A stretch of 47,514 nucleotides of DNA from Phycisphaerae bacterium (GTDB taxonomy: Bacteria; Planctomycetota; Phycisphaerae; Sedimentisphaerales; Anaerobacaceae), in assembly GCA_030619925.1 (NCBI GenBank), contig JAUXAL010000023.1, forward strand, positions 1-47,514. The letters run 5' to 3'. The notes beneath the pieces are model-generated. The model was not told the origin of the DNA. It worked only from the letters and a program-made list of their open reading frames with translations, and ran no database searches. Position 1 is the first letter of the stretch. The number at the start of each line of letters is the position of its first letter. Positions 533 to 40,594 of the stretch are shown one piece after another. The position numbers and the translations under genes were made by a program.

Positions 533-1813
533 TTAACTTTCCCGGTCCGGCCTCGTTTTTCTTATCGGCTTTTGCTGGACAAATCGGCTGATATTGCGAA
601 TCGCCTGGCGGAGGCGCTGCTCGTTTTCGACAAGGGCTATGCGCATATAATCCTCGCCGTTTTCGCCAAAGGCCCTGCCCGGAGCGATTGCGACCTCCGC
701 ATACTCCATCAGGTCCATTGCATAGTCAATGCTGCCCTTGCCTTTTGAATGTTCCTGCGGCACTTTTGCCCATACGAACATTGAGGCGCGCGGCTTTTCC
801 ACCTCCCAGCCGAGCCTTCCAAGACCCTCGCAAACCACATCACGTCGCGACTGGTACCTCTGGTTTTGAGCGATAATATCGGCGTCACAGCTTCGCAATG
901 CAATAATGCCGGCTATCTGTATCGCCTGGAACATGCCGTAATCGTAATAGCCCTTTATCGTAGCAAGATAATCTATCATATCTTTGTTACCTGCCACAAA
1001 GCCCATGCGAAAACCCGCCATATTATAGGGCTTGCTCATCGTAATAAACTCGACGCCGATGTCCTTCGCTCCTTTGACCGAAAGGAAACTCGGCGCTTTA
1101 TAGCCGTCAAAACAGGTCTCGCCATAAGCAAAGTCGTGAATGACCGCTATGCCGAACCTCTTTGCTAATTCGACCACCGGCTCGAAGAATCCTTCATCGA
1201 CGGTCATCGCGGTCGGATTGTGCGGGTAATTGAGAATCAGCAATTTGGGCTTTGGATACATATTTTCAATTACCATCGCGACGTTATTTATAAATTTTTC
1301 GTCGTTGCCCAAAGGAACAGATACAACATTTGCACCGGCCAATGCCACTGCGTAATTATGTATCGGAAAAGCAGGGTTGGGAACAACCGCAGTATCGCCC
1401 GGCCCCATCATCGCCAGGCACAAATGGCTAAAACCTTCCTTTGAGCCGATACAGGCCAGCACCTCCGTCTCCGGGTCGAGCTGCACATTCCATTTGCGCT
1501 CATATTTTTTCGCTATTTCCTTGCGCAAATTCTTAATACCTTTCGATGCACTATATCGGTGGTTGCGCGGGTCCTGGGCCGCTTCGCACAGCTTGTCAAC
1601 TACAATTTGCGGAGCCGGGTCGGACGGATTACCCATCCCCAAATCGATGATGTCTATGCCCGCCTGGCGTTTGGACATTTTCAGCGCATTCAATCGTCCA
1701 AACAGATAGGGCGGCAAACGCTTTATTCTCTGTGCCGGCTCAATCCGCCTGTCAGACGCCCGCCGAAGGCGGGCATGATCCGACCCGGCGTTGCCGGGCT
1801 TTAATTCAGTCAT
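533..1813 (-). CDS. AlaC-like PLP-dependent aminotransferase (class I/II)
   Basis: Full-length fold-type I aminotransferase of 426 residues, closest in pattern to the AlaC/YfdZ (glutamate-pyruvate) and LL-diaminopimelate aminotransferase group. Seen: IIDLGMGNPSDPAP near residue 56, ILNYPHNPTA (the NPT cofactor-binding motif), HDFAYGE, MSKPYNMAGFRMGF with the likely Schiff-base lysine, and a C-terminal MRIALVEN carrying the substrate-carboxylate arginine. It probably moves an amino group between alanine or another amino acid and 2-oxoglutarate in the cytoplasm. The first ~28 residues are unusual: residues 5-21 are encoded by two adjacent GC-rich palindromes (1758-1800), and the conserved domain begins only at IKRLPPYLF. 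No strong ribosome binding site precedes the chosen ATG. Substrate is not certain. Confidence 0.88.
   Translation of the reverse strand: MTELKPGNAGSDHARLRRASDRRIEPAQRIKRLPPYLFGRLNALKMSKRQAGIDIIDLGMGNPSDPAPQIVVDKLCEAAQDPRNHRYSASKGIKNLRKEIAKKYERKWNVQLDPETEVLACIGSKEGFSHLCLAMMGPGDTAVVPNPAFPIHNYAVALAGANVVSVPLGNDEKFINNVAMVIENMYPKPKLLILNYPHNPTAMTVDEGFFEPVVELAKRFGIAVIHDFAYGETCFDGYKAPSFLSVKGAKDIGVEFITMSKPYNMAGFRMGFVAGNKDMIDYLATIKGYYDYGMFQAIQIAGIIALRSCDADIIAQNQRYQSRRDVVCEGLGRLGWEVEKPRASMFVWAKVPQEHSKGKGSIDYAMDLMEYAEVAIAPGRAFGENGEDYMRIALVENEQRLRQAIRNISRFVQQKPIRKTRPDRES
1758..1800. repeat. Two adjacent GC-rich palindromes inside the aminotransferase N-terminus
   Basis: CCCGCCGAAGGCGGG followed by CATGATCC, then CCCGGCGTTGCCGGG followed by CTTTAATT. 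The two units have the same 25-base layout (stem-loop plus tail). They are read in frame as part of the aminotransferase, and the first belongs to the family at 29137, 29239, 30309 and 30733. Confidence 0.7.
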
Positions 1814-2002
1814 AATCTTATCCCGAATATTATATATACAATCGGACAGTCTATACCGAACGGATAAATTTTCAAAGCGATTTTATCCGCCTTGGGCGAC
1901 GATTCTCGCCCCACAACTCCCGGCAGTGGTGCTCTCGACATTTGGATTATTTGGCCTGCCTTTCCGGACTGCGAATGTGGGTTTACATTCATTCTTTCTA
2001 AA

Positions 2003-2148
2003 ATTGGCTTTGATTGGCTTTGTTTTTCCTTACTCTCCGCTGCCATCTATCTTCATAATCCTTTATTACAAGTGAGTTTGCATTTATTTAGGCCTTAAGC
2101 GAATTGGCTTTGATTGGCTTTGTTTGGGTTTGAATTGGGTTTGTTTTT
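2003..2148. repeat. ATTGGCTTTG short tandem arrays
   Basis: ATTGGCTTTGATTGGCTTTG occurs at 2003 and again at 2103, the second time continuing into TTTGGGTTTGAATTGGGTTTG. On the minus strand this reads CAAAGCCAATCAAAGCCAAT. The period is about 10 bases. A further short copy (AAATTGGGTTTG) lies near 2222. Confidence 0.6.
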
Positions 2149-2544: not shown

Positions 2545-2605
2545 GTTCGATGCTGGATTCTGGATGCTCGATGCTTGATACTCGATTCTGGATACTCGAT
2601 GATTG
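2545..2605. repeat. TCGAT-type degenerate tandem array
   Basis: Alternating GATGCTGGATTCTGGATGCTCGATGC-like units with a period of about 8-9 bases. The same unit type recurs at 24588-24612, inside a signal-peptide coding region, and at 33737-33803. Confidence 0.6.
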
Positions 2606-2609
2606 ATTT

Positions 2610-2824
2610 CGATATTTTGTTTTCATTGTTCGATAACAATCAATCGCGGGGAAAATGCTTATACGTAAAGCGCGTACGCCAGTATTTTTCTACCGAAAAG
2701 TAAGGCCTGGGTACTTATACGCGCTTTACGTATGTGACATTATAAAAAACTCCAAGTTTAAGTACTAAAAATTCATGAGCAGCCGAACTGACTTGCGACT
2801 TCCAACGTCAGATTTCAGACATCG
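2610..2824. repeat. Long direct repeat, copy 1 (interrupted palindrome)
   Basis: Begins CGATATTTTGT and ends CAGACATCG. It contains left arm ATACGTAAAGCGCGTA (2661-2676) and right arm TACGCGCTTTACGTAT (2718-2733), separated by a 41-base loop. The loop is bounded by direct TACGC repeats (2675-2679 and 2718-2722). No open reading frame explains it. Copy 2 is at 2861-3034. Confidence 0.85.
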
Positions 2825-2860
2825 GACAACCGACATCAGACTTTTGTATATCGAAGGATT

Positions 2861-3034
2861 CGATATTTTGTATTTATTGTTCGATAACAATCAATCGCGG
2901 GAAAAATGCTTATACGTAAAGCGCGTACGCGCTTTACGTATGTGACATTTTAAAAAAAACTCCAAGTTTAAGTACTAAAAACTCATGAACGGCCGAGCTG
3001 ACTTCCGACTTCCAACGTCAGATTTCAGACATCG
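2861..3034. repeat. Long direct repeat, copy 2 (perfect 30-bp palindrome)
   Basis: Near-identical to copy 1 along its length (CGATATTTTGT..., TCCAAGTTTAAGTACTAAAA, CCAACGTCAGATTTCAGACA), but the central loop is absent. The two arms therefore meet as an exact 30-base palindrome at 2912-2941, with half-site ATACGTAAAGCGCGT. It could form a cruciform or bind a symmetric protein. Its function is unknown. Confidence 0.85.
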
Positions 3035-3265
3035 AACATCTGACAGCTCGCAATTGACCTAATCTTTACTTAACGCCGAGTCTCCGCGTGTGGTATACTA
3101 CATATCAGCGATATTGGGAAAAGCCGTTGATTGCCCTTTTATACAAAAATGGGGACGGAGGATAAAAAAATGAAGGAGGTAGGGAATTCACGAATCCTGC
3201 GGACAATCCCTTTACTGATTGCGGTTTGCTTTGCTCAGCTTTGAACGTGTTTTCAGTTTGTTTAC

Positions 3266-5290: not shown

Positions 5291-5644
5291 CTATGGTTTC
5301 GGAGGCAATTCCAACGGCGGAAACGTCACGTTTTTGGCCTTTTTTATCCAGGCAGGGTCTCCATATACCCCCGCCTTGCTGTAATCGAACGGCTTAAACC
5401 CGGCAAGCTTTAAGCCAAACCTCGCAAGTATCGTTGGAGCAACATCTGCGCGTTCGCCGCGACGCGCAACCTTGGGGTCGTTGGTACCTAAAAAGACATA
5501 GGGGGCGTCCTTATGGCTCGGCTGACCCTTGACGGTGTTGTCATTGTGGAGGGCTAGCCCGCCGCACGTCTGGCGGGCCAGCTTGGCGAACTGCCGTTCG
5601 GCCTTAGCGGGTTTCTTCCCGGTCACGGCCATCGAACAAGTCAT
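5291..5644 (-). pseudogene. C-terminal remnant of an alkaline-phosphatase-superfamily protein
   Basis: Open frame of 117 codons overlapping the 3' end of the upstream fusion gene by 41 bases. Its PYVFLGTNDPKVARRGERAD and VAPTILARFGLKLAGFKP match closely PHVFLATNDKKVNRNGRRQD and VAPTVLEAFGLPLSKLEP in the neighbouring phosphatase domain. Everything N-terminal to this, including the nucleophile and the ADHG metal-binding motif, is missing. I infer a tandem paralogue that has lost its first ~250 residues. A GC-rich palindrome (5557-5578) sits exactly at the junction with the conserved part and may have accompanied the rearrangement. A short functional protein cannot be excluded but has no intact active site. 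Confidence 0.6.
5557..5578. repeat. GCCCGCC...GGCGGGC palindrome in the phosphatase remnant
   Basis: GCCCGCC, loop GCACGTCT, GGCGGGC. It is read as QTCGGLA in the remnant frame, a stretch with no counterpart in the intact paralogue. Confidence 0.55.
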
Positions 5645-9616: not shown

Positions 9617-9783
9617 CACCGGCACATAACAGCCGGGGGGAGTGCATCCGGGCAATTCGCTGCCGGCCGGGCGTCGTGAGTCTATTATGAAGATTCAGCG
9701 TCGGCCAAATGTTACTTTTGCTGTTCCTTGTGCCTTATATATGCGGGGGGCACAGATGGTGTATCCATCGGAGGAAACTGAAA

Positions 9784-20895: not shown

Positions 20896-22278
20896 TTATA
20901 CTTCAAAGTCTCCCTGCTTGAACTCTAACTTCCTGCCGGTTGCCACTGCTTCGTTGACTCTCAATACGGTGACAGCGGTTTCGTATCCGATTTGGGCGGG
21001 GCAATTGAGCTTGGCCTTGCCGCGAACTGCATCGAAGAAGTTCTCAAGGTGCGGCTGATGGTACGGCTTATTATCCATTGTAACAGGTACGTCATAACTG
21101 GGCGGCTTGGGTGACTCACGCACATCCAGTACGGCGTCGGTAGCAGGTTTCTCTTCTTCCTTCTCTATAGGTATCTTCAAGTAGCCCATTTTGACCCATT
21201 TTTCCCAATTCTCTGCCGGAACCCAAGGTTCGCGATAGACAGTGCCTCGCCCCGCAGCTTCCGAGACTACCAGCGTCCCTTGGTCGCCCATAAAGGTCTC
21301 AAAATATCCGTTGCTGCTGTTGGTGGTTATTGTCTGATAAAATGCCCTGACTATTCCCTGCTTGGTTTCATACTCATAAATGGCCATAACATTGTCATAC
21401 CAGTCGTGGCCCTTCCAGTAGTCAATGCCACCACTGGCTATGACCGATTTGGGATTGGCGTCGAGGAACCAGCTATAGATATCAATCTGGTGCGAGCCAA
21501 GGTCAACAATGGGGCCGCCTCCTAATCCCTTGTACCACCGCCAGTTTCTAAACTGCGACATCGATTTGAAACCGTACTTTTGCAGTGTAGGCTGGTCAAT
21601 TACGGCATTTTTCGGGAAACCTAAATCCTCGCACGCCGCCTTGCTGCGGTTCCACTGGCCGTTGATGGTAGTAATCCGGCCCAATAGCTTTGCCCCGTTG
21701 ATGAGCTTCTCGTAACAGTGAATGTAGCGGGGGTTGCTGCGACGCTGATGGCCAATCTGCAGGAGCTTGCCGGTTTCCTTTGCGGCCTTGAGCATCTTTT
21801 TAGCGCCTTCGAGTGTGTTGGACATCTCCTTTTCGCAATAGACGTCCAACCCGGCTTTGAGACAGGCAACAGCGTGCTCGGCGTGCCAAAAATCAGGCGT
21901 GGCAATTATGACGGCGTCAAGGTCTTTTTCCTTATCGAGCATTTCCTGGTAGTCCACATAAGTATTATGCTCGTGGCGATAGGCTTTGAGTGTGCGTGAG
22001 ACGCGTCTTTGATTGTAAGCCGTCCAGATGTCGCAGAGCGCTTTAAACCGAATGCCGGGTATCTTGAGGCAGGCATTCATCAACTCATACCCCTGAGCTC
22101 CGGCGCCGAGCAAGGCTATGTTAATATCATCTGGTTTTCTGCCGCTCGTCTGCCCAAGAACCGTCGGTGAGGTTCCCGCAAAGCGGGGTCCCGAAAACGC
22201 CAAGCCTGCTCCAACCGCTGCGGTAGAACGCAGGAAATTACGTCTGTCTATCTTTTCTTTAGTTCTTTGATTATTCAT
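20896..22278 (-). CDS. Tat-exported Gfo/Idh/MocA oxidoreductase (CEKEMS variant)
   Basis: 460 residues. Twin-arginine signal DRRNFLRS (R12-R13) and hydrophobic AAVGAGLAF, then INIALLGAGAQG (dinucleotide motif, residues 58-63), CDIWTAYNQRR, IIATPDFWHAEHA, and YCEKEMSNT, where the proline of EKP is replaced by glutamate while the lysine is kept. IVDLGSHQIDIYSWFL carries the conserved His/Asp motif. It is expected to fold in the cytoplasm with bound NAD(P) and then be exported to oxidise or reduce sugars. A GGTTCCCGC...GCGGGGTCCC palindrome encodes SGPRFAGTS (29-37), between signal and mature domain. Sugar unknown. Confidence 0.88.
   Translation of the reverse strand: MNNQRTKEKIDRRNFLRSTAAVGAGLAFSGPRFAGTSPTVLGQTSGRKPDDINIALLGAGAQGYELMNACLKIPGIRFKALCDIWTAYNQRRVSRTLKAYRHEHNTYVDYQEMLDKEKDLDAVIIATPDFWHAEHAVACLKAGLDVYCEKEMSNTLEGAKKMLKAAKETGKLLQIGHQRRSNPRYIHCYEKLINGAKLLGRITTINGQWNRSKAACEDLGFPKNAVIDQPTLQKYGFKSMSQFRNWRWYKGLGGGPIVDLGSHQIDIYSWFLDANPKSVIASGGIDYWKGHDWYDNVMAIYEYETKQGIVRAFYQTITTNSSNGYFETFMGDQGTLVVSEAAGRGTVYREPWVPAENWEKWVKMGYLKIPIEKEEEKPATDAVLDVRESPKPPSYDVPVTMDNKPYHQPHLENFFDAVRGKAKLNCPAQIGYETAVTVLRVNEAVATGRKLEFKQGDFEV
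22171..22193. repeat. GGGACCCCGC palindrome (family B) in coding sequence
   Basis: On the plus strand GGTTCCCGC-AAA-GCGGGGTCCC. The same element, in either orientation, occurs at 33671, 37842, 38050 and 44281. Confidence 0.75.
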
Positions 22279-26093: not shown

Positions 26094-26104
26094 AACTCAA
26101 CTCC

Positions 26105-26175
26105 TTTTCTGATAATTGGCAACCTGTAATTGGTTATTGGTAATTTACATTTACCATTCACCAATTACTATTTAA
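26105..26175. repeat. ATTGGTAA/TTACCA array between paralogues
   Basis: GATAATTGGCAACCTGTAAT TGGTTATTGGTAATTTACA, then TTTACCATTCACCAATTACT: inverted 7-8 base quasi-repeats of the same kind as at 24667 and 11434. Confidence 0.55.
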
Positions 26176-26178
26176 CCA

Positions 26179-27576: not shown

Positions 27577-27598
27577 ATACCTTTCCTCTTATTTAGTG

Positions 27599-27624
27599 GT
27601 ACGGGCTGTTCGCAAACAGCCCGT
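27599..27624. repeat. TACGGGCTGTT palindrome
   Basis: TACGGGCTGTT-CGCA-AACAGCCCGTA: perfect 11-bp stem with a 4-base loop, 22 bases upstream of the oxidoreductase start at 27576, on the side of its promoter. Confidence 0.65.
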
Positions 27625-27627
27625 ACA

Positions 27628-27676
27628 GCCATCCCCAAGCTCGTCCCAATTCTTTGGGACTCGCTTGAGGCTGCCA
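27628..27676. repeat. GCCATCCCCAAGC/CTTGAGGCTGCCA element, copy 2
   Basis: Same flanks as 15058-15111, but the hairpin inside is GTCCCAA-TTC-TTTGGGAC instead of GGACTCC...GGAGTCC. Confidence 0.7.
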
Positions 27677-27682
27677 CCCATC

Positions 27683-27755
27683 AGAAGTCAGATGTCAGAA
27701 ATCAGAAGTCAGATTGTCTGTTCTCTGTCTTCTGTTCTCTGTTTTCTGTCTTCTA
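27683..27755. repeat. CAGAAGTCAGA/CTGTTCTCTGT degenerate array (noncoding)
   Basis: AGAAGTCAGATGTCAGAAAT followed by TGTTCTCTGTCTTCTGTTCT: the noncoding counterpart of the array that encodes the signal peptide at 24543-24655. Confidence 0.65.
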
Positions 27756-29192
27756 CAAGGACCATCCGTCGCGATAAGGTTCATTGACGTATTTGTTCGC
27801 CTCATCATCGTTAGTAACCTTCATGTTTTTACCATCCCACAGCAGCTTTTTGCCTAAACGGCGAATGGCCAGGTTACCCATCACAACGGCTTCGGTCATT
27901 GGACCGGAGTAATCAAAGTTTGAACAGGCCGACTCGCCGCTACTACTCTGCGAAGCACGAGCCTTGCAGGCCCTGACCCAATCTTGTTCGTGACCATCCT
28001 GGCCGCCCTCTATCCTGGGCAGAGTTTTCGGCGGACGCTCGTATTCCTGCATCAGCTTCTCCGGTATCAGCCGGGGACTGTCACCGTACTCGCCGCACCT
28101 CAATACGCCCTTGTCGCCAATAAACAGGACGTTGCTCTTGGCCTGCTCTAACCTTCGGCCCGGTTCCAAGGCATCCGGCCGCGGTGGCTTCAAACCACCA
28201 TCATACCAGTGTAGTTTAACCGGGGGCATGCCTTTACGGGCAGGAAACTCGTAACGAACGATAGAAGCTGTTGGGAACGATTCGGTACTTAGCCCTCGTT
28301 TGCCCCAACCTCCAGGTACCGGACGTACGTGCATTGCAGCGCAGGCTTCGACACTGCTGGGATAGCGCAGTTTCAGCGCCCAGAAGACAGGGTCAAGCAC
28401 ATGGCAGGCCATATCACCTAACGCTCCGCATCCGAAATCCCACCAGCCTCGCCACAGTTTCGGCAAATAAACGGGATGATACGGGCGCCATGGTGCCGGG
28501 CCGAGCCACAAATCCCAGTCCAGCGACTCCGGCACGGGTGGCCTGTCCGTTGGCCGGTCAGCGTCCTGCGGCCAAATCGGCCTGTTGGTCCAGGCGTGGA
28601 CCTCACGCACATCACCGATGGCCCCATCCCAGAGCCATTCGCAAATCAAGCGGACTCCTTCACCGGAGTGGCCCTGGTTGCCCATCTGAGTGGCGACTTT
28701 GTACTTGCGGGCCGCCTCGGTCAGCACACGGGCTTCATAGACCGTACGCGTCAGCGGTTTTTGCACATATACGTGTTTGCCCCGCCTCATTGCCGCCATC
28801 GTGATTACAGCGTGCGTATGGTCCGGCGTAGCGACAATCACCGCATCGATGTTTTTCTGCTTATCCAACATCTTGCGGAAATCGCTGTATACCCTGGCCT
28901 TCGGATATTCTTCGCATACTCCGCCGGCATAAGCGGCATCCACGTCGCACAGCGCGACGATGTTTTCAGTTTTGCATGCTCCTACGTTGCTTTTACCCAT
29001 ACCGCCAACGCCGATGCCGGCTATATTGAGCTTTTCGCTCGGGGGCCTATACCTGCGTCCTCCGAGCACTTGCCGGGGCACAATCGTAAATGCCATTGCT
29101 GCCGCCGCGGCGCCGCCCATAAAATCACGCCGAGACACCCGACGAAGGCGGGTCTGATCCTGCTGTTTGTTAGTTTGTTTCCGGTCTTTCAT
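27753..29192 (-). CDS. Tat-exported Gfo/Idh/MocA oxidoreductase (triad 1, QKP variant)
   Basis: 479 residues from the ATG at 29192, which has AAGGA eight bases upstream; the longer frame to 29222 lacks one. Signal SRRDFMGGAAAAAMAF (R21-R22), NIAGIGVGGMGKS, VATPDHTHAVIT, then YVQKPLTRT: the glutamate of EKP is glutamine while the lysine is kept. GDMACHVLDPVF carries the His/Asp motif; the C-terminus reads YRDGWSL. Residues 12-18 (DQTRLRR), between the start and the twin arginines, are encoded by a CCCGACGAAGGCGGG palindrome. Same family and neighbourhood as 24747 and 26179. Substrate unknown. Confidence 0.88.
   Translation of the reverse strand: MKDRKQTNKQQDQTRLRRVSRRDFMGGAAAAAMAFTIVPRQVLGGRRYRPPSEKLNIAGIGVGGMGKSNVGACKTENIVALCDVDAAYAGGVCEEYPKARVYSDFRKMLDKQKNIDAVIVATPDHTHAVITMAAMRRGKHVYVQKPLTRTVYEARVLTEAARKYKVATQMGNQGHSGEGVRLICEWLWDGAIGDVREVHAWTNRPIWPQDADRPTDRPPVPESLDWDLWLGPAPWRPYHPVYLPKLWRGWWDFGCGALGDMACHVLDPVFWALKLRYPSSVEACAAMHVRPVPGGWGKRGLSTESFPTASIVRYEFPARKGMPPVKLHWYDGGLKPPRPDALEPGRRLEQAKSNVLFIGDKGVLRCGEYGDSPRLIPEKLMQEYERPPKTLPRIEGGQDGHEQDWVRACKARASQSSSGESACSNFDYSGPMTEAVVMGNLAIRRLGKKLLWDGKNMKVTNDDEANKYVNEPYRDGWSL
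29137..29160. repeat. Family A palindrome before the twin-arginine motif
   Basis: CCCGACGAAGGCGGG followed by TCTGATCC, read in frame on the minus strand as DQTRLRR. Confidence 0.7.
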
Positions 29193-29238
29193 ATTCGTAT
29201 TCCTTAAATAAACAATCGCCATTTAAACTGTCTAAAAC

Positions 29239-29260
29239 CCCGCCGAAGGCGGGCTTAATC
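29239..29260. repeat. Family A palindrome, intergenic copy
   Basis: CCCGCCGAAGGCGGG followed by CTTAATC, between the stop of the DUF1080 lipoprotein gene and the start of the next oxidoreductase. Confidence 0.7.
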
Positions 29261-29262
29261 GG

Positions 29263-30423
29263 TTACAATTCAACCAGCCAAATGTTACGGTATTGCACGG
29301 CATTGCCGTGGTCCTGCAGATATATGCCGCCCCGCTGGGTTACATCACCGCCCGTGGCTGCCTTAGTCACCTTCGAGACTTTTACATTATCATGTATTTT
29401 CACGCCGTTGTGGATTACTGTCATGCGGGCGTCTCTGATTAGCTTGCCGGTACTGTCGAAACGTGGAGCCTGGAACGTAATGTCATAGGTTTGCCATTGC
29501 ATCGGCGGGGCACACATGTTTACCAGGGGCGGCGCGACCTTGTAGATTCCGCCGCATTCGTTGTCCATGCCTTCAAGGCCGTAGCTGTCGAGCACCTGCA
29601 CTTCATATCGCCCCTGGAGGTACACGCCGCTGTTGCCGCGTTTCTGGCCGCGCGCATCGGGCATAAACGGCGTGCGAAATTCCAGATGCAGCTTCACATC
29701 GGCGAACTCCTTTTTAGTTATAATCGAACCGGTGCGCGGCTCGACTTCCATCGCACCTGCCTTCAGCAGTTTCCACTGGACCGACTCATCACCTGATTTC
29801 TTACTTATACGCTTCCACGCATCAAAGTCTTTGCCGTCGAAGAGCACAACTGCACCTGCGGGCGGCTTGGCCCCCAATGTAGGTGACAGCCGAATCTCTC
29901 TTTCCACTGCAAAGCTGCCGGTCGTGTCTTCGTCCTCGAAAGTCCCGGTGAACTTCCTACCTTCAATCGCCCCCTGGACCTGGAGCTCGGCATCTTCGTA
30001 TCTGGCCAGCCCTGCAAAGAGTACCACTGGGCCTTCACGGCGGCCCTGGAGCACCGCCACAGGCTCCTCGCGTGTATCAAACCGGCCATAGAAATTGGCC
30101 CTGTATGTGCCTTTACCCAAAGCTATTACCTGCGCTACCAGCGGCCCCGAATCACTTTCGTCATCCAGTTTCCAGCTTCCCTGCCAGTCGCCCATGGCAG
30201 GGTCGGCGGCCTCGATGGCACGCCTGGCCTCAAGAGCCGGACCGCTGACCAACAGATCCGCGCAGGAGGATAGGAACAGAGACAGAAACAGCAGTGATAT
30301 CAAAGCAACAGTCCCGCCGAAGGCAGGCTTGATCCAGTCCAGCCCGACGAAGTCGGGTTTGATCCAGTCCAGGGCTTCGCCCTGGCCGTCGTTAATTAAA
30401 GAACTATACTTTCCGTTTTTCAT
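29263..30423 (-). CDS. DUF1080 (3-keto-disaccharide hydrolase-like) lipoprotein
   Basis: 386 residues from the ATG at 30423, which has GGAGG five bases upstream. Lipoprotein signal TVALISLLFLSLFLSSC ends at Cys54, unusually far in, because 25 residues (13-37) containing LDWIKPDFVG and LDWIKPAFGG are encoded by tandem palindromic repeats. Residues ~75-180 form a small beta-rich domain (WQGSWKLDDES, GTYRANFYGRFD). Residues ~190-386 are the DUF1080 domain: VVLFDGKDFDAWKRI, GNSGVYLQGRYEVQVLDSYG, MQWQTYDITFQAP, GGIYLQDHGNAVQYRNIW. It probably cleaves or hydrates oxidised glycosides at the membrane. It sits directly behind the HEAT gene. Confidence 0.85.
   Translation of the reverse strand: MKNGKYSSLINDGQGEALDWIKPDFVGLDWIKPAFGGTVALISLLFLSLFLSSCADLLVSGPALEARRAIEAADPAMGDWQGSWKLDDESDSGPLVAQVIALGKGTYRANFYGRFDTREEPVAVLQGRREGPVVLFAGLARYEDAELQVQGAIEGRKFTGTFEDEDTTGSFAVEREIRLSPTLGAKPPAGAVVLFDGKDFDAWKRISKKSGDESVQWKLLKAGAMEVEPRTGSIITKKEFADVKLHLEFRTPFMPDARGQKRGNSGVYLQGRYEVQVLDSYGLEGMDNECGGIYKVAPPLVNMCAPPMQWQTYDITFQAPRFDSTGKLIRDARMTVIHNGVKIHDNVKVSKVTKAATGGDVTQRGGIYLQDHGNAVQYRNIWLVEL
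30309..30390. repeat. Tandem ~30-bp palindromic repeat inside the lipoprotein signal
   Basis: Three units with the spacer GATCCAGTCCAG: CCCGCCGAAGGCAGG, CCCGACGAAGTCGGG and GGGCTTCGCCC. Units 2 and 3 are 30 bases apart, i.e. ten codons, so copy-number change keeps the frame. Confidence 0.8.
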
Positions 30424-30441
30424 TGTTACCTCCGGAATCAT

Positions 30442-30595: not shown

Positions 30596-32062
30596 TTAAC
30601 TTTCTTTTTCGTTTACCTTCACCTGTATCTTTAATCGGTCAATCTGATTCATTACTTCCTGCGCCTGTTTACGCAGCGAATCATTCTTCGAAGTTTGGAT
30701 GATTCTATTGAGCACTGCCTTGGTCTGTTGAGCCCACCGAAGGCGGGTTTGATCCATTCCTGGACTTTCGTAAATGCCCTCGGCAATTTTAACGACTGCA
30801 AATTCCGCTTCCCTGAATAAAGTCTCGTCCTGGAGGTAATCTGCGGCCATCAGCAGTGCGTCAAGAGATTTAGTGTTGGCCAGCCCTGAAAGCACCCTTT
30901 TCTTTTCTCCCGCGTCCGGTGCCAGGCTCATTGCTGTGCTGTACATTCCAATCGTCTCTTTAACCGGTCGGATACCATCAAACCCGAGAAGTCGGACAGC
31001 CCCCCGCAGGGCCAGAATCCGGTGTAGTTTGTTGTCGGAACTCTCGGCTACCTTCAGCAGGTCAGGTGCCGGCTCGGGAGTAGGCCAGTCCGCCAGGGCA
31101 CGAATAGCAGCGCCCTGGATTTCGGCGTTGCTGCTATTCAGCGCTTCGCGAAGGCAGGGCAAAGCGCCGCTATCACCTATTTTGCCAAGCACGCTCAGCA
31201 GAGACGACCGTCTTTCGATATCTTTAACTGAAGGCAACACAGCCAGCACCGCCTCAGCCTGCCGGTTCTTGTCTTCGATTTTATGGGCAACAGCGGCCAC
31301 TGTCCTCTCGGCTTGGTTGCGGTCGGATGAGCTTTGTACGTTTATCAGAAGATCGACCAACGCCGGCAGATGCTGCGGGCCGGCAATGACTTTTAAGACC
31401 TTGAACGATTCGGCTCGGACCCGGCCAACGGCCGGTCTGCTCATACCCAGCGTTGCTGGGCGGTCCGAATCCTTCGCGGTTTTCAATAAAGTGCTCACGC
31501 CTGCGGAGATATTGCGCCGGCCTACACTGCTAATCAGTTCGACTTTTGCCTTCGGGTCAGCCTTTGGAATGCCCGCCAAAATGGCTCCATCAACCGTTGG
31601 GCCGCGCAGACGATACAAGCTCTCGCGGGCGGTCTTCTGTTCATCACCACTGGTAGCTGCCGCCGTCTGTGCCAATAAGCCAACGGTCGAGGCGTTACCG
31701 AGCTGGCCTAATGCCCTCAAGGCTGCAATCCGAACAGACTCGTCTGCGGCCTTCGCAGCGGTGATAACCGCCGGCAAAGCGGCCGCGTCACCGCGGTCGC
31801 CCAGGGCCGAGAGTAACTGCACCTGACTGGTAACTGAAAGATTCGGCAGCTCTTTGGCCAAAACCTTTGTTACTTCTGTCCCGGGCATTTCTTTTACCAT
31901 TGCTATGGCCACGGCCTGCATTTCCTGATCATCGCTCCTGAGGACGTCGAGGACTATCCCGATGGCCTCATCCTGCGGCTGCTCGGAAGCAGCAAAGCAA
32001 ACAGCATAAGAGCACAACAGCAAAACAGTTAGAGAGTTACAAATGTTGCACTTGGTTCTCAT
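30596..32062 (-). CDS. Secreted HEAT-repeat protein
   Basis: 488 residues with a Sec signal (NSLTVLLLCSYAVCFA). Almost the entire mature part is HEAT-like helical repeats (for example VLRSDDQEMQAVAIAMVKEM, LPAVITAAKAADESVRIAAL, ALPCLREALNSSNAEIQGAA), an all-helical scaffold for binding other proteins in the periplasm. Two GC palindromes are read in frame: about residues 201-206 (ATLGMSR, in a loop) and 436-443 (DQTRLRW). It begins nine bases after the ThuA-HEAT stop, so the two are surely co-transcribed. No enzymatic motif seen. Confidence 0.82.
   Translation of the reverse strand: MRTKCNICNSLTVLLLCSYAVCFAASEQPQDEAIGIVLDVLRSDDQEMQAVAIAMVKEMPGTEVTKVLAKELPNLSVTSQVQLLSALGDRGDAAALPAVITAAKAADESVRIAALRALGQLGNASTVGLLAQTAAATSGDEQKTARESLYRLRGPTVDGAILAGIPKADPKAKVELISSVGRRNISAGVSTLLKTAKDSDRPATLGMSRPAVGRVRAESFKVLKVIAGPQHLPALVDLLINVQSSSDRNQAERTVAAVAHKIEDKNRQAEAVLAVLPSVKDIERRSSLLSVLGKIGDSGALPCLREALNSSNAEIQGAAIRALADWPTPEPAPDLLKVAESSDNKLHRILALRGAVRLLGFDGIRPVKETIGMYSTAMSLAPDAGEKKRVLSGLANTKSLDALLMAADYLQDETLFREAEFAVVKIAEGIYESPGMDQTRLRWAQQTKAVLNRIIQTSKNDSLRKQAQEVMNQIDRLKIQVKVNEKES
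30733..30756. repeat. Family A palindrome in the HEAT gene
   Basis: CCCACCGAAGGCGGG followed by TTTGATCC, read on the minus strand as DQTRLRW, the same peptide frame as the copy at 29137. Confidence 0.7.
31446..31460. repeat. CCCAGCGTTGCTGGG palindrome in the HEAT gene
   Basis: CCCAGC-GTT-GCTGGG, read in frame within RPATLGMSRPAV, between two HEAT helices. Confidence 0.5.
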
Positions 32063-32071
32063 TTTTTACCG

Positions 32072-33721
32072 TTACCTTTTCGTCGCGCTGATTACGCCCC
32101 GCAGTGCAGCGGTACGAATCGGCTTAGGCATGTCCTCTTTCTGAAGTTCCCTGTAGATGGCTAAAGCCTGAGTTTTGTTGCCCTGGGCAGCGAGCTGGTC
32201 GGCGCACCTCAAATAAGCATCCAGAACCGACATTCGCAATTTGCCGCTCGTCTCGTCCTTTGCTTTTGCCAGCGCTTTAGTGGCCCCGGAACCGGCGATT
32301 CGGCCAAGAGCGGCAGCAGCGGCGGCAGCTATCGTCTGGTCGCGATTGCCAACAAGTCTGCTAAGAGCACGAACCGCTCTTTTGTCACGACGCTGACCCA
32401 ACGAGTTGATTATACCGACTTTCGCCTTACCCCTTGCTTTTGGTAAGGCCTTGCGCAATGCCTCATTGACAGCTGTACCGGGTATGCGCTCCAGGGCATA
32501 TCTGGCCATATCAGAGGTTTCGGCGTCGGTCAGCATCTTACCTAAGGCCGGCACGGACCGCCTGGTGCCAATAATGCTCAATTGCCTGCAGACAAACTGC
32601 TTGCCGGCCCGCATTGCATGTGAGTCGAGCACCTCCAGCAGGCCTTCCTCAATTCGCCTCAGCTCCGCAGGTGAACCATGTGCCTGGCGCACACGGTCGC
32701 TTATCTCGGTGAGCGCCAGACGGCTTTGGCCCCAATCGTACGTCTTAACCTTTTCCAGTAATTCTTCCATCTCTGACCCCTTTCCTGAACTAATCATAGG
32801 CTTCGGTTTCATATCAACTTTATAGTCACCAAATGCAAACTGAATACCGTCGAGATAGTGCCGCAGGACCGCCGGGTTCCAGAAGATGTGGTCGTTGTGT
32901 CCCAGTGAGCAGTAGAATATGCGTCCTCTACCCCAGCTCTTGACCCAACTGATACCGGTATCGGTATCCGTTGGTTTGAACTCCTTAACGTTACGGGTGG
33001 CTTCATCGCTCACATCGAGACTCATCAGAACAAGCTGCTTGTCCCGCGAATACAGTGGCGGGTCTGTTCGATAAATCTCATCATTTATCTTGAATCCTTT
33101 ACCCTTGAAGGCTTTGGTCAGCGGATGGTCGGGCTCATCAATCTTAATCGCCCAGGTCCCGTTGGCGCGCCAGGGATGACCGGTAAACTTACCGCCCATC
33201 ATTTCCATCGCTTCCGGCCAGTCGTTAAAATTGTCCGTAGCTGCGTGAATACCCACTATGCCCTTTCCGCGTTTGACAAAGTTCATCAGACTTTTGCACA
33301 GCTGGCCGGTACGTTCGGGATTGAACTTAAGGCCGGTGGTATTATTAAAGCAGACCGCGTCAAATTGCTTTAGGTTCTCCGGCTTGAATATGGACATGTC
33401 GTTGGTGATTACGGTCTCGAACGCCCCGGTCTTTTTCCCCAAGATTTCGAGGGCTTTATTGCCCACGGGGATAGATTTGTGGAAGAAGCCTTCACACAGC
33501 CAGAAAACCAGGAGTTTGCGCGGCCTGGCGGGCCTGACGGTGGGCCTTCTCGGCACCGCCTTTTCTATTTCTCGCACTTCTTCCGGCGTTACTTCCCGCA
33601 GCTTCGCCGGCGAGACCGCGGCGACGGGGCTTATCAACAGTGACAGGCACAAGGCGACAAGCAGTGCGATGGGTTCCCGCAAAGCGGGGTCCCTGCTAAT
33701 TTGTTTTGACCTTCGAATCAT
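32072..33721 (-). CDS. ThuA-domain protein with C-terminal HEAT repeats
   Basis: 549 residues from the ATG at 33721, behind AAGGAG with a five-base spacer; the upstream ATG at 33736 lacks one. A signal peptide (ALLVALCLSLLISPVAA) is followed by a ThuA (trehalose-utilisation type, class I glutamine-amidotransferase-like fold) domain at ~45-290: RKLLVFWLCEGFFHKSIP, FDAVCFNNTTG, KGIVGIHAATDNFNDWPE, GGKFTGHPW. HEAT repeats fill ~325-549. ThuA proteins accompany sugar oxidoreductases and have been linked to 3-keto-sugar metabolism. A family B palindrome encodes SRDPALREP (about 9-17), just before the hydrophobic core. Head of a two-gene unit with the HEAT protein. Confidence 0.85.
   Translation of the reverse strand: MIRRSKQISRDPALREPIALLVALCLSLLISPVAAVSPAKLREVTPEEVREIEKAVPRRPTVRPARPRKLLVFWLCEGFFHKSIPVGNKALEILGKKTGAFETVITNDMSIFKPENLKQFDAVCFNNTTGLKFNPERTGQLCKSLMNFVKRGKGIVGIHAATDNFNDWPEAMEMMGGKFTGHPWRANGTWAIKIDEPDHPLTKAFKGKGFKINDEIYRTDPPLYSRDKQLVLMSLDVSDEATRNVKEFKPTDTDTGISWVKSWGRGRIFYCSLGHNDHIFWNPAVLRHYLDGIQFAFGDYKVDMKPKPMISSGKGSEMEELLEKVKTYDWGQSRLALTEISDRVRQAHGSPAELRRIEEGLLEVLDSHAMRAGKQFVCRQLSIIGTRRSVPALGKMLTDAETSDMARYALERIPGTAVNEALRKALPKARGKAKVGIINSLGQRRDKRAVRALSRLVGNRDQTIAAAAAAALGRIAGSGATKALAKAKDETSGKLRMSVLDAYLRCADQLAAQGNKTQALAIYRELQKEDMPKPIRTAALRGVISATKR
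33671..33693. repeat. Family B palindrome before the ThuA signal core
   Basis: GGGTTCCCGC-AAA-GCGGGGTCCC, read in frame as DPALREP. Confidence 0.75.
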
Positions 33722-33736
33722 TTTGGCTCCTTTCAT

Positions 33737-33803
33737 TCTCGATTCTCGATTCTTGATTCTCGATTCTCGTCGAGTATCTAGTATCCAGTATCGAGTATCG
33801 AGT
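33737..33803. repeat. CGATTCT / GAGTATC degenerate array
   Basis: CTCGATTCTCGATTCTTGAT and CTCGATTCTCG, then GAGTATCTAGTATCCAGTAT and CGAGTATCGAG: 8-base quasi-tandem units directly upstream of the ThuA gene, of the same type as at 2545 and 24588. Confidence 0.65.
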
Positions 33804-35192: not shown

Positions 35193-35214
35193 TTGCCTTT
35201 CTCCTTTTCATCCG

Positions 35215-36519: not shown

Positions 36520-36574
36520 AATCAAAACTTTTACGTCTCACGGCTAATAGTCAATAGTAAATAATAAATAGTTA

Positions 36575-36597
36575 ACCCGCCATACGCGTGGCGGGTA
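36575..36597. repeat. CCCGCC...GGCGGG palindrome with heptamer array
   Basis: ACCCGCCATACGCGTGGCGG GT at the end of an AATAGTCAATAGTAAATAAT array (36546-36574) between two paralogous oxidoreductase genes. Confidence 0.6.
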
Positions 36598-36601
36598 AAT
36601 T

Positions 36602-37939
36602 TCACAGGTGCCACGGGCTGCGCATCGGCCGTGACCGCATGCGGTTGGCCTCATCATCATCTACGAACGTCTCGGCAGCCGGATCCCATTTTACCTTGCG
36701 ATTCAGCCGGGCTGCGATGTCAGCTATCATACCGAGATAGGAGGCCTTGTGGCCGGCCTCGACCGGAGCTACCGGGTCGCTGCGGGTCCGCACACAGTTA
36801 AGGAAATCAGCGCGGTGCTCCCCGGACTCGTAGAGGTGTATTTCGTCCGGCTTGATTTTCACCTTCAGCAACGAGGCAGGCTCAGCGGAAATCCCCGCCC
36901 GGTTGACATGGACCCAGCCGGCGTTGCCTTCGAATTGGCAGCCCTGTTTATTCGGGTTGTCGCTATCTGTAAAAGTCATGCGCAGACCGCCGGCGTAGTT
37001 GAACTCAGCCTGCCAATCGTTAATATTGTCAGTCAGGCCGTCGTTGCGATAGCTCGCCTTGCACTCGAGCTCGAACGGTTCGCCGGTGACCGCCGGGCAA
37101 CCCCAATTGGCAATGTCGAGATGATGAACGCCCCAGTTGACGATAAAGCCGGCGCAGTAATCCCAAATCAGGTACCAGTCCGGCCAGGCGTGCCGGCCGG
37201 CGTTATAAGGTTTCATCGGAGCCGGACCAATATACATATTGTAATCGAGCCCTGCGGGAATCGGTTCGGCGGTGGGAGGTTTGTGATATGTCCGCTTGTA
37301 CTTAGGTCCGGGCGCGGCGACCTCGACCGTGTGTATGTCGCCAAGATACCCGTTCCTCGCAAGCTCACATGCGAACCGGAATTTGCGATCTGACCGCTGC
37401 TGCGTACCGGTCTGGAACACCCGGCCATACCTTCGTACCGCGTCGCGGATGGCCTGGCCCTCGCGCACCGCCACACCCAACGGTTTTTCGCAATAAATAT
37501 CTTTGCCCGCGCGTGCGGCCGCGACGGCAATCAACGCGTGCCAATGGTCCTGGGGGGCAATCATCACCGCGTCGATATCCGTGCGGGCGAGCATGTCGCG
37601 GAAGTCATTATAGCCGGCACATCCCTTGTCGCCGTAGTGCCGGTCAACAATGTCCTTAGCTTCTTGGCGCCGACTTTCAACAACATCGCAAACGGCAACA
37701 ACCTGCACTTCAGATTCGCCCATGAAACCCCGCATGTTACCTGTGCCCTGGCCACCCATACCGATGCAGCCCATCACAATCCGATTACTCGCCGCGACAT
37801 TGCCGGCTGCGCCCAGCGCCGATGACGGAACAATGTACGGAGGGACCCCGCTTCGCGGGAACCCAAAGCCTATTGCCCCAACAGCGGTGCCGGCTACCTT
37901 TAGGAACTGACGGCGGCTAATATTATTTTTGCCAGCCAT
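36602..37939 (-). CDS. Tat-exported Gfo/Idh/MocA oxidoreductase (triad 2)
   Basis: 445 residues. Signal SRRQFLKVAGTAVGAIGF (R9-R10), RIVMGCIGMGGQGTGN, CDVVESRRQ, MIAPQDHWHALIAVA, YCEKPLGVA and IVNWGVHHLDIANWG. C-terminus MRSPWHL. A family B palindrome encodes FPRSGVPP (27-34), lying between the signal helix and the PSSALGAAG linker; its two siblings read FPYLIPSS and FPYVVSSS there, so the insertion can be placed to within a few residues. Upstream GAGGA suits the ATG. Substrate unknown; tandem arrangement argues for duplication followed by divergence. Confidence 0.9.
   Translation of the reverse strand: MAGKNNISRRQFLKVAGTAVGAIGFGFPRSGVPPYIVPSSALGAAGNVAASNRIVMGCIGMGGQGTGNMRGFMGESEVQVVAVCDVVESRRQEAKDIVDRHYGDKGCAGYNDFRDMLARTDIDAVMIAPQDHWHALIAVAAARAGKDIYCEKPLGVAVREGQAIRDAVRRYGRVFQTGTQQRSDRKFRFACELARNGYLGDIHTVEVAAPGPKYKRTYHKPPTAEPIPAGLDYNMYIGPAPMKPYNAGRHAWPDWYLIWDYCAGFIVNWGVHHLDIANWGCPAVTGEPFELECKASYRNDGLTDNINDWQAEFNYAGGLRMTFTDSDNPNKQGCQFEGNAGWVHVNRAGISAEPASLLKVKIKPDEIHLYESGEHRADFLNCVRTRSDPVAPVEAGHKASYLGMIADIAARLNRKVKWDPAAETFVDDDEANRMRSRPMRSPWHL
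37842..37864. repeat. Family B palindrome in a Tat oxidoreductase
   Basis: GGGACCCCGC-TTC-GCGGGAACCC, in frame. The two flanking paralogues lack it, which marks it as an insertion. Confidence 0.8.
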
Positions 37940-38013
37940 AAGCAGCTTTCCTCAAAGCTCAAGGCTCGCCTGCCGGCGGCCAAGGTTCGCAAACATAAAC
38001 TCTAATACTGCGT

Positions 38014-38072
38014 CTTGAGTCCGCCGTAAGGCGTCCTGTGGACTTGAGAGGGACCCCGCTTTGCGGGAACCC
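38014..38072. repeat. Adjacent family C and family B palindromes, intergenic
   Basis: CTTGAGTCCGCCGTAAGGCG TCCTGTGGACTTGAG (38014-38048; family C) directly followed by GGGACCCCGC-TTT-GCGGGAACCC (38050-38072; family B), just beyond the stop of the TIM-barrel gene. Family C has an in-frame copy at 40364-40393. Confidence 0.7.
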
Positions 38073-38078
38073 AGAGGC

Positions 38079-39080
38079 CTATTCCCTCTCAAATGCCGCG
38101 TCGAAGGCGACCTGTGACGGCTTGAAATTTGCCTTCTTGATGTACTCGCAAGCCTCCTTGGCGCCGTGCTCGCGGTCCATTCGCGTGTCTTCCCACTCAA
38201 CCGACAGCGGTCCCTGGTAGCCGATATCGTTGAGGGCGACGATGATTTCCTCGAAGTTGATATCGCCGTGGCCGATGGAGCGGAAGTCCCAGTAGCGGCG
38301 AGGGTCGGCGAAATCAGTGTGACCACCGAAAACACCCACCGTACCGTCGCCATGACCCCACCAGACGTCCTTCATGTGGGTATGGAAAATGCGATCAGAA
38401 AAGGTCCGGATAAACTTGACGTAATCGACCCCCTGGTAACCGAGATGGCTGGGGTCGTAGTTGAAGCCAAAAGACCCGTGGCCTCTGAGGGCTTTAATGG
38501 CACGCTGAGCCGAGGCAATGTCAAAGGCGATCTCCGTCGGGTGAACTTCCAGAGCGAACTTCACACCTTCGGCCTTGAAGGCGTTGAGGATGCGTCGCCA
38601 GCGCCTTGCGAAGTCCTTGTAACCTGCCTCTATCGCCTCCGGTGAGGCCGGCGGAAACGAGTAAAGCAAGTGCCATATCGAACTGCCCGTAAATCCATTG
38701 ACGACCTTTACGCCGAGTTTCTTCGCGGCCTTGGCGGCATCGATTACCTTGTCGGCCGCACGCTTGCGAACGCCCTCCGGGTCGCCGTCGCCCCAGACAT
38801 CGGCAGGCAGGATTGCCTTATGACGCTCGTCGATATTGTCGCAGACAGCCTGCCCAACCAGGTGCGTCGAGATCGCGTACACTTTAAGGCCGTGCTCTTT
38901 CAGAAGGTCACGCTTGGCCTTGCAGTAGCTGCGGTCGCTCAGGGCCTTGTCCACGTCGAAGTGGTCGCCCCAGCAGGCCAGCTCCAGCCCGTCGTATCCC
39001 CAGCTTGCCGCCTTTTGAGCCAATTTTTTCAGTGGCAAATCCGCCCACTGTCCAGTAAAAAGTGTTACAGGTCTACCCAT
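38079..39080 (-). CDS. Sugar phosphate isomerase/epimerase-like TIM barrel
   Basis: 333 residues, no signal peptide, so cytoplasmic. Pattern of the AP-endonuclease-2/xylose-isomerase-like TIM barrel: [63 protein letters not shown] (metal-ligand-type Glu and His), [12 protein letters not shown] (Asp, His), IFHTHMKDV (His) and [13 protein letters not shown] (Glu). These are the usual metal-site residues. Likely isomerises or epimerises a keto-sugar delivered by the exported oxidoreductases. AAGGAG stands eight bases before the ATG. Confidence 0.85.
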
Positions 39081-39283
39081 TTGTCATTCTCCTTAGCAAA
39101 ATATTCAGAAGTTTTCCGTAAAATGCGTCACTCGGTAAGAAACAACCACACGAGCATTATAGCCCGCAGGAACCGATACGCAATTCAAATTCCCTGCGAA
39201 AACATTATCACCTCTGTTTTGAATCCATCAACCGATTCACGATTTTCAACGTCGGTCGGAAATGGTTTCACCGTCCAACCATT
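39081..39283. other. 203-bp intergenic spacer
   Basis: No repeat or gene recognised. It should hold the promoter or leader for the TIM-barrel gene if that is not read through from 40594. Confidence 0.4.
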
Positions 39284-40594
39284 TTACTGCTTGAGCACTT
39301 CGACCTTTGGACCCTGGGCAAATGCCGAGTATCTATTTGCCAGCTTCCGCCGCCGGCGCATTTTACCCGCCCAACCCACGGCGGGTTTACCTTCACCTAT
39401 CCAAATGCGATAACGCAGCGTCAGAGTTTCGCCGGCGCCTATTTTCTGCTTGAAGAATGCGCCGAACCGTCCATAGTCGCGATAGGCCGAATAGAAAGTA
39501 GACTTCGGATTGCCGGGATGATTCATATGCTGAACACAGTAACGCCGGCCGTTCAATCCGTATGACATCGCCGCCCAAGGCAAATCCTTATCCTTGTGAG
39601 CATCGATGCCGTCTTTATGAAACAGGTAAGCTGCCTTGACCTCTTCATCGCCGGCGGCAACGTCATTATGCGCTCGATACTGAAAGCCGCCGTGCTCCGG
39701 ATCGCCATTGAGAAAAACCTCGCCTCTGACAGCTTTCAATTCGGTTTGAAAATCCAGCAGCAGGATAGTAGGGTCGCTCTGGCGAAATACAGTCGTTTGG
39801 CGCCGCTCGACTATAATTGGCTTGCTGTCTTTGTCACTCCAGTGAATCAACGCCCTCGATCTTGCCAGGACCGGACCAGTGGTCCGCTCCAAAAATTTCC
39901 CATGCCGCTGGACCACGCCACCTCCCATGCCCCAGAAACCATACGTATTGCCGGCAAATTCCAGTTTAGTCCAGCCGATGAATATGCCGCGATGGTGCGG
40001 ATAGCGTATCTTGTCTTTCGGATACGGACCGATGCCGTCCGGACCATTGGTCAGCAGGTTCTTCCCTTCAGAATCAAAGACGTGGAGAAAGGGTTTGCAG
40101 GTCTCAAAGATTCGCTGTGGATTTGAAGTATCGCAGGCATACATATAGCATGTAATCTTGCGGCCGCTGAAAAGCAAATCCAGATATTCTCCATTTTTGC
40201 CCTTCCACGAAAAAACCTCCTCGCTGGTTTTTCGCCCGTGCTTGATAGTGGCAATCCAGGTGCTCGCCCTGTTTGCCTTTACCCGAGGCAGTATCCACCA
40301 CAATTCTGTTTCTCCTCGGCTTGTCACCACGAGCTGGCCCGGCACCGCCTTTGCCTTCGTCGCGTCCCGCCGGAAGGCGTCCTGCGGACTGAGCTCGATG
40401 CTGATTTGCTCAACAGGCAGATTAGCCAACCCTTCGGGCAAGTCCTCGATAACCGCGTGAACCGGCACATCGAAAGAATCAGCCTTCGGTGCGGAAAGCT
40501 TAAGACGAATCTGCTCAGCCCCACCGGTCACACTCAAACCACAAATTACAGCAATAACAAATATGGCAGTGACAAGCTTCGTTTCGCCTTTCAC
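39284..40594 (-). CDS. Secreted DUF6807 (PmoA-like) protein
   Basis: 436 residues from a GTG start with a Sec signal (TAIFVIAVICGLSVTGGAE). The mature protein has the DUF6807/PmoA-like pattern: ITCYMYACDTSNPQ, GPDGIGPYPKDKIRYPHHRG, IFIGWTKLEF, WGMGGGVVQRHGKF, HGGFQYRAHNDVA and MNHPGNPKSTFYS. The family is common in planctomycete and Bacteroidetes sugar loci and adopts a galactose-mutarotase-like fold; its reaction is not settled. Two palindromes are read in frame: family C (LSPQDAFRRDAT, around residue 70) and a CCCGCC...GGCGGG element near residues 402-410 (KPAVGWAGK). Same family as the N-terminal half of the gene at 40645. Confidence 0.78.
   Translation of the reverse strand: MKGETKLVTAIFVIAVICGLSVTGGAEQIRLKLSAPKADSFDVPVHAVIEDLPEGLANLPVEQISIELSPQDAFRRDATKAKAVPGQLVVTSRGETELWWILPRVKANRASTWIATIKHGRKTSEEVFSWKGKNGEYLDLLFSGRKITCYMYACDTSNPQRIFETCKPFLHVFDSEGKNLLTNGPDGIGPYPKDKIRYPHHRGIFIGWTKLEFAGNTYGFWGMGGGVVQRHGKFLERTTGPVLARSRALIHWSDKDSKPIIVERRQTTVFRQSDPTILLLDFQTELKAVRGEVFLNGDPEHGGFQYRAHNDVAAGDEEVKAAYLFHKDGIDAHKDKDLPWAAMSYGLNGRRYCVQHMNHPGNPKSTFYSAYRDYGRFGAFFKQKIGAGETLTLRYRIWIGEGKPAVGWAGKMRRRRKLANRYSAFAQGPKVEVLKQ
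39365..39391. repeat. CCCGCC...GGCGGG palindrome in the DUF6807 gene
   Basis: ACCCGCC-CAACCCAC-GGCGGGT, in frame near the C-terminus. Confidence 0.55.
40364..40393. repeat. Family C element in the DUF6807 gene
   Basis: GTCCCGCCGGAAGGCGTCCT GCGGACTGAG, close to the noncoding copy at 38019-38048; read in frame as LSPQDAFRRD. Confidence 0.65.

Follow-up and report, generated by a model that had tools for sequence, protein, structure and literature searches.

The window analysed here is the whole of a 47,514-nucleotide contig (C102; JAUXAL010000023.1, positions 1 to 47,514, assembly GCA_030619925.1) from a Phycisphaerae bacterium of the Anaerobacaceae, whose genome amounts to 4.02 Mb in 141 contigs. 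Short GC-rich palindromes recur in it, as they do elsewhere in the genome, both in noncoding DNA and within unrelated genes, and we put at roughly 0.86 the probability that they represent very small mobile palindromes of several families, non-autonomous and lying in frame in genes. Rickettsia provides the best-known cases of mobile palindromes within functional genes, and the present ones behave like the Rickettsia palindromic elements (RPEs), only shorter and read in several frames, with families B and D/E adding 24 nt even outside genes.

Pattern matching over the genome with up to 3 mismatches recovered 136 matches for family A, 107 for family B and 38 for family C, the last being the least certain family; the same patterns read backwards as a control yielded 0 in each case. 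Copy counts vary slightly with the mismatch limit and the end rules (for B: 39, 36 or 34). Family A is a double hairpin, consisting of CCCGCC-GAA-GGCGGG, a TGATC-bearing linker and a second GC hairpin of variable sequence; the original prediction had correctly described the first hairpin and its tail and had overlooked the second. What it had called looser CCCGCC...GGCGGG forms are present too, but they fall into separate families with 4-bp target duplications and an 8-nt loop, namely D (CCCGCC-CAACCCAC-GGCGGG) and E (CCCGCC-RNACGYNT-GGCGGG). In a sample of 676,395 bases, comprising the window and 40 stretches picked for carrying A, the 103 A copies examined comprise 63 double hairpins of type 1 and 11 of type 2, 74 in all, and 29 copies of neither type. 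Alignment of 61 of the 63 type-1 copies, two overlapping second readings being excluded, gave 60 distinct sequences in which 99.0% of cells are paired; both sides have changed at 7 of the 12 pairs, in 58 cells, while shuffles average 13.2 and none of 500 reaches 58. Pairing is alike in coding (98.1%, 44 copies) and noncoding (98.7%, 19 copies) DNA. No GTAG tag is found at the edges of A, and the columns beyond its hairpins are low in information; CGTC is internal in C and E, with no end tag. Rfam gave no match within the window. In a CBS-GGDEF-HD gene (L089:12990-15317), two sites together hold five A-type readings, with hairpins lying back to back among them, and several A copies elsewhere in the genome sit within a minisatellite of the type GATTCTCGATTCTGGATACTCGA (L090, L107, L112), which is also dispersed in short form in the window (2549-2599, 20748-20770, 33741-33763).

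In the sample, of which our codon-hexamer gene caller marked 85% as coding, predicted genes hold 76 of the 103 A copies (26 intergenic, 1 partial), 25 of 39 B copies (14 noncoding), 8 of 20 C copies (12 noncoding), 8 of 13 D copies and 14 of 21 E copies; the hairpins are hence also found in intergenic DNA away from the window, as had been anticipated. At least 30 codons separate 64 of 75 coding A copies from both gene ends, and some lie within catalytic domains. A preference for signal peptides or linkers, which had been suggested, is seen in the window, where the first 40 codons hold 8 of the 11 coding copies, but not in the sample. As the gene caller requires open frames, the phase test was run independently of gene calls, by determining the best coding phase in 40 codons on either side of each element in the sample and 20 further stretches of the genome. 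When an element has coding sequence on both sides on one strand, the two sides agree in phase at 52 of 52 A copies (116 examined), 11 of 12 B copies (49 examined), 9 of 9 E copies (21 examined) and 3 of 4 C copies (27 examined), none of the 14 D copies being scorable. Adjacent same-strand genes, used as control, are distributed 42/40/43 across the three phases. This bears out the proposal that coding copies keep the frame, and A is indeed read in more than one of them: five strand-and-frame combinations produce different peptides. Of the 55 strand-and-phase cases at A whose flanks are coding, one reads a stop within the element. Among A copies in predicted genes, those with an intact TGA on the strand of the gene number 6 and 18 in two frames and 0 in the frame that reads the TGA, while those on the opposite strand number 20, 6 and 16 across the frames. 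Such a pattern is to be expected if the elements inserted almost at random and the broken genes were then lost, although it is partly built in where genes are called by open frames. In B, D and E all six frames of the core are open in 48 of 49, 14 of 14 and 20 of 21 copies, respectively; for random stretches of equal length the figure is 23-27%. Including the duplicated flank lowers D and E to 9 of 14 and 12 of 21. For the whole A double hairpin, five or six frames are open in 56 of 116 copies, four in 54 and three in 6, with 30% of random 41-mers having five or more open.

Evidence for insertion comes first from a 155-bp noncoding repeat (L041:1451-1605), several copies of which lie at contig ends, that is found with and without B. 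The empty copy (L099:6945-7075) is shorter by exactly 24 nt and reads ...CCCTGCG/AAAGCAG... across the site; every other copy seen carries B, the loci having been picked for B. The base preceding B equals the base following it in 31 of 36 copies, and in 9 of 11 in noncoding DNA, and this matching base on either side fixes a period of 24. Secondly, perfect 4-bp direct repeats flank 23 of 30 palindromes with an 8-nt loop (D/E) as against 0 of 73 with a 3-nt loop. Noncoding copies are likewise duplicated (D 5/5, E 5/7), and the duplicated 4-mers vary (CTTG/CAAG, TTTA, CTGG/CCAG, TTAA), as target duplications do, with the net addition being 20 + 4 = 24 bp. Given that B and D/E measure 24 nt in noncoding DNA too, the added length cannot be solely a product of selection in genes. 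That both are multiples of three has a chance of about one in nine and is suggestive only. For A, one candidate empty site in a noncoding repeat, located in a minisatellite, was not alignable and was not used.

Within genes the net differences are 24, 39, 60 and 78 nt: A contributes 39 bp in two of the genes measured and, in two others where it is a tandem, 78 bp. A Pfam scan covering 50 of the 80 element-bearing genes found a match in 42, including the large chain of carbamoyl-phosphate synthase (CarB), acetate kinase and PEPCK. The segment lies at residue 419 of DnaA, between the ATPase and the DNA-binding domain, and at residue 486 of a SecA-like ATPase, within the P-loop domain match. Alignment with PDB homologues leaves gaps at the segments of about 25 residues in GlnRS, 20 in MurD, 13 at A and 6 at B in a pyruvate-dehydrogenase-type E2, 8 in PEPCK and 7 in acetate kinase. 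The E2 relatives lack the 13 residues at A in all 30 aligned open reading frames (ORFs; 29 loci, L148 twice, some being more distant paralogues) and the 8 residues at B in 29 of 30, the remaining one lacking 6. Similarly, 23 of 24 PEPCK relatives are without the 8 residues and the other is without 7, and 23 of 24 relatives of MurD, which carries E plus A, are without 20 residues, the other row (L214) ending at the site with a net of 0. In GlnRS the segment of about 26 residues is absent in 37 of 40 other genomes searched: their matches break at residue 118-121 and restart at 145-148, often directly adjacent in the DNA. Of the other three genomes, one gave no match, one a weak match, and G013 has a version adding 13 residues at the same site. 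The compared orthologues, therefore, do not carry the segments. No second full-length match to GlnRS, E2, MurD or PEPCK was found in this genome, an incomplete assembly, from which it follows that the segment-bearing proteins are presumably the ones in use.

Exact A matches occur in 12 stretches among 84,980 species genomes (own records possibly excluded), six of them planctomycetal by record title; the second hairpin is present in all these six (two with a mismatch) and, by eye, in none of the other six. Viral contigs gave 0 exact A matches. Allowing up to 2 mismatches in 120 genomes including this one, A is found 104 times here and 7 times in the next genome, G035, with none in 92. B is more widespread than A in the same taxonomic family, numbering 49 in G016, 33 in G023, 23 in G035, 15 in G009, 14 in G003 and 12 in G053, and there were none in 39 genomes of other families searched; three genomes gave one backwards-control match each. 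Of 27 B copies in stretches of G023, G016 and G003 picked for B, 18 lie in predicted genes. E is present in G016, G030 and a few others, a weaker count in that the backwards control also matched several genomes, with 24 strand matches in this one. Certain insertions are shared across genera: at a site in common with G035 (JADFJC010000024.1) the element is identical at 42 of 42 positions and the flanks match in translation, with ungapped identity by position of 77% on the left and 38% on the right; with G067 the element is 93% identical and the flanks 79% and 84%; and an insertion at the same site is shared with G013 as well. Conversely, a gene that we take to be AraD-like holds a 78-nt tandem in G064 where this genome is empty. 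Presence and absence between genera in both directions, together with the empty B site and the D/E target duplications, uphold the earlier suggestion that these sequences are mobile or copied.

The likeliest course of events is that the elements insert largely irrespective of where genes begin and end, and that enzymes presumably move them in trans. D/E would require an enzyme making 4-bp staggered cuts, whereas A and B might use other enzymes or that of D/E with other outcomes. With all six frames open in the cores of B and D/E, and four or five in A, an insertion of 3n length would be read through as an extra segment of 8, 13 or 26 residues; survival in genes would then depend on this length and on stop-poor arms, and segments falling in tolerant places of still-functional proteins would persist, some across genera. 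More tentatively, and at slightly less than even odds, the elements might be codon-neutral selfish DNA of unrelated families, in which the insertion mechanism itself sets the 3n length (24 nt in B and D/E, also outside genes; 39 nt in A, in genes only) and the arms of B and D/E are stop-free in every frame.

Several observations weigh against the view of these palindromes as mobile elements or against parts of it. For A, the search for a target duplication showed no clear period, with a weak rise at 39 only, and all measurements of its net size come from genes, which permit only multiples of three; nor is that size always 39, the 60 nt in MurD being 24 + 36 and not 24 + 39. The gaps against PDB homologues in CarB (3 + 6, a total of 9 residues) and SecA (3 + 9, a total of 12) are below 13, and acetate kinase has a further unexplained gap of 12 residues nearby. 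One B and one C copy scored out of phase, openness is lower for the entire A double hairpin than for the core alone, and the assembly is 92.8% complete. Further, no enzyme was tied to any family. The genome has four Y1 transposase genes, and in none of them is a copy of A, B or C closer than about 1.5 kb, although contig ends truncate these loci in part. In about 0.84 Mb, approximately one fifth of the genome, pairs spaced 200-6000 nt apart included no parent transposon with E-like ends and equal 4-mers. A DDE_5 insertion sequence was considered as the mover and rejected, being split over two contig ends and having ends unlike D/E; DDE_5 is presumably typical of IS701-like elements, for which we assume a 4-bp target YTAR, and nothing on that target was found among the literature matches listed. 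As a separate observation, other hairpins lie beside three of the four Y1 genes, those of L032, L033 and L034 being of the types GGTGGGGC..GCCCCACC, CCCCCTGCA..TGCAGGGGG and CCCCCAACGT..AGTTGGGGG, and 0 of 4 sample copies of the GGTGGGGC..GCCCCACC type are in genes.

The Y1 genes bear on the alternative that the elements are repetitive extragenic palindromes (REPs) moved by RAYT-type tyrosine transposases, with the intragenic copies being in-frame survivors. We regard this as unlikely, although GC stem-loops of 20-40 bp and four Y1 transposases are what it would expect. The available part of one survey reports REPs in Planctomycetes, CGTC repeats without known transposase, and intragenic REPs, which are most numerous in Opitutus terrae and Rickettsia conorii (PMC3733652). 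What the two groups have in common is short GC stem-loops, with several families in each genome and some intragenic copies, but REPs and bacterial interspersed mosaic elements bear GTAG/CGTC tags and in that text are mostly intergenic (PMC3733652), whereas A has no conserved GTAG at its edges or other end tag and is not mainly intergenic (26/103, with 76/103 in genes); C differs in this respect, with 12/20 intergenic. A RAYT gene flanked by the element, as in GTAG REPs, was not found for A, B or C near any of the four Y1 genes, and D/E leave 4-bp duplications.

As to RPEs, the comparison drawn in the original prediction holds for behaviour: dispersed palindromes, in coding and noncoding DNA, in frame in unrelated functional genes, with several families per genome. 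It fails for membership, on size and on one peptide per element. RPEs are described, in the accessible portion of the source, as about 150 bp long and each encoding a conserved peptide, with nearly half of those in R. conorii within ORFs and these from three of ten families (PMC10969869). By that description the present elements differ in adding 24 or 39 nt net (78 in tandem), in being read in several frames, in their planctomycete host, in the 4-bp duplications of D/E and in the different peptides of A, which has no single conserved one. Miniature inverted-repeat transposable elements (MITEs) are likewise non-autonomous with inverted repeats, and in-frame fusions are known for them in the part of the text available (PMC10969869); the likeness in target duplication extends to D/E alone, as A shows none (0/73) and B a 1-nt match. 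MITEs are given as 70-300 bp in the portion of the survey at hand (PMC3733652), whereas D/E are 20 bp in all, with no parent insertion sequence in the 0.84 Mb searched. In Haloquadratum, some palindrome-associated transposable elements (PATEs) are fused ends of IS605-type transposons and, like A, carry palindromes close to their ends but lack MITE-type inverted terminal repeats, according to the available text (PMC3119063); here the host is bacterial and no IS605-type element with A hairpins was found. As tested, then, the families behave like RPEs yet fit neither the RPE nor the REP definition. Among the literature matches listed (titles and abstract openings), there was no prior report of them in Phycisphaerae, PMC3733652 being the nearest.

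An equally improbable account to that of REPs is spread by template switching or gene conversion between hairpins in place of transposition. The compensated arm changes of A agree with it, as do tandem hairpin arrays and the resemblance of an A site to the arm, CCCGCC lying on both sides at E2; the exact 24-nt noncoding insertion of B and the 4-bp duplications of D/E, however, are footprints of transposition. It is considerably less probable that the segments are missing from the mature product, through ribosome skipping or removal from the RNA. Bypassing elements occur in some mitochondria, the hairpins are strong, and the D/E duplications place identical triplets on both sides, but such removal would tolerate any length and any stops, and yet all 52 scorable A copies are in phase and a stop is read in just 1 of 55 cases. 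Ordinary divergence, with GC-rich protein loops that happen to form hairpins, could draw on the excess in the sample of hairpins with at least 6 pairs, many kinds of which are present (1343 versus 829 when block-shuffled), but is hardly tenable in the face of identical sequences in unrelated genes and noncoding DNA, zero backwards matches and precise absence from orthologues.

The window itself contains 16 copies (A 6, B 5, C 2, E 2, D 1, with the tandem at 30309 counted as two), of which 11 are in nine called genes and 5 in noncoding DNA (Table 1). The coordinates given for them by the original prediction carry the hairpins to within 1-2 nt. The count of at least ten reading frames was too high by one, unless ORF 37952-38353, dropped by the gene caller, is included, and the 117-aa ORF at 5291, for which Pfam gave no match, is doubtful as a gene. 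Of the peptides proposed for A, SDHARLRRAS and WIKPxF are read as such, whereas DQTRLRR, assigned to two genes, is exact in one and differs in its last residue in the other.

Table 1. Palindromic elements of the window, with the genes and peptides in which they are read
Element	Position	Strand	Location	Reading or flanks
A double hairpin	1758..1798	+	near 5' end of aminotransferase gene 533-1813(-)	SDHARLRRAS; two best PDB homologues align only from residues 25 and 24
E palindrome	5557..5578	+	ORF 5291-5632(-), doubtful gene	flanks CTAG/CCAG, 3/4 match
B	22170..22192	-	codon 29, near 5' end of Gfo/Idh/MocA gene 20896-22278(-); signal region by eye	SGPRFAGT
A, first hairpin and tail	29137..29159	+	near 5' end of Gfo/Idh/MocA gene 27753-29222(-)	DQTRLRR
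A	29239..29260	+	noncoding, between two genes	second hairpin not seen
A, tandem unit 1	30309..30342	+	near 5' end of gene 29263-30441(-)	WIKPAF
A type 2 double hairpin, tandem unit 2	30343..30385	+	same gene 29263-30441(-)	WIKPDF
A	30733..30754	+	near 3' end of HEAT-repeat gene 30596-32062(-)	DQTRLRW
B	33671..33693	-	near 5' end of ThuA/HEAT gene 32072-33736(-)	RDPALREP
E palindrome	36575..36596	+	noncoding	flanks TTAA/TAAA
B	37842..37864	+	codon 26, near 5' end of Gfo/Idh/MocA gene 36602-37939(-); Tat-type signal region by eye	GFPRSGVP
C	38014..38043	+	noncoding	
B	38050..38072	+	noncoding per gene caller	
D palindrome	39365..39386	+	codon 404 of 437, gene 39284-40594(-)	TTTA/TTTA duplication
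C	40364..40389	+	codon 69 of DUF6807 gene 39284-40594(-)	flanks scored out of phase
B	44281..44303	+	noncoding	

Other features of the window include two 96-nt direct repeats, 91% alike (2740-3045), around the long palindrome ATACGTAAAGCGCGTACGCGCTTTACGTAT (2912-2941), which is also present in L033, a stretch bearing a Y1 transposase gene. The regions 24747-29222 and 33804-37939 are paralogous gene runs with long direct repeats 60-75% alike, two checked members of which are Gfo/Idh/MocA oxidoreductases. A single ORF at 5607-7208 joins a phosphodiesterase/sulfatase-like half to a methyltransferase-like half, and the gene at 9709-11433 is made of tandem units every ~99 nt, with 12 copies in one repeat family, which by eye we take to be ankyrin-like.

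These elements are small enough to be measured at the level of the nucleotide, and they lie within housekeeping enzymes. Hosts such as GlnRS, MurD, carbamoyl-phosphate synthase, E2 and PEPCK have homologues of solved structure, and DnaA is a host too. They offer an uncommon look at selfish DNA that apparently ends up in protein. Direct tests thereby become possible of how proteins gain segments, where these are tolerated and whether selfish DNA evolves so as to spare the reading frame. For annotation, repeated DQTRLRR, KPAFGG, RDPALREP and GFPRSGVP segments are likely to be derived from the elements and not to be shared domains. If the codon-neutral reading is true, a genome that is about 85% coding would be nearly fully open to such elements, and its proteome would be steadily lengthened by ready-made segments of 8 and 13 residues.

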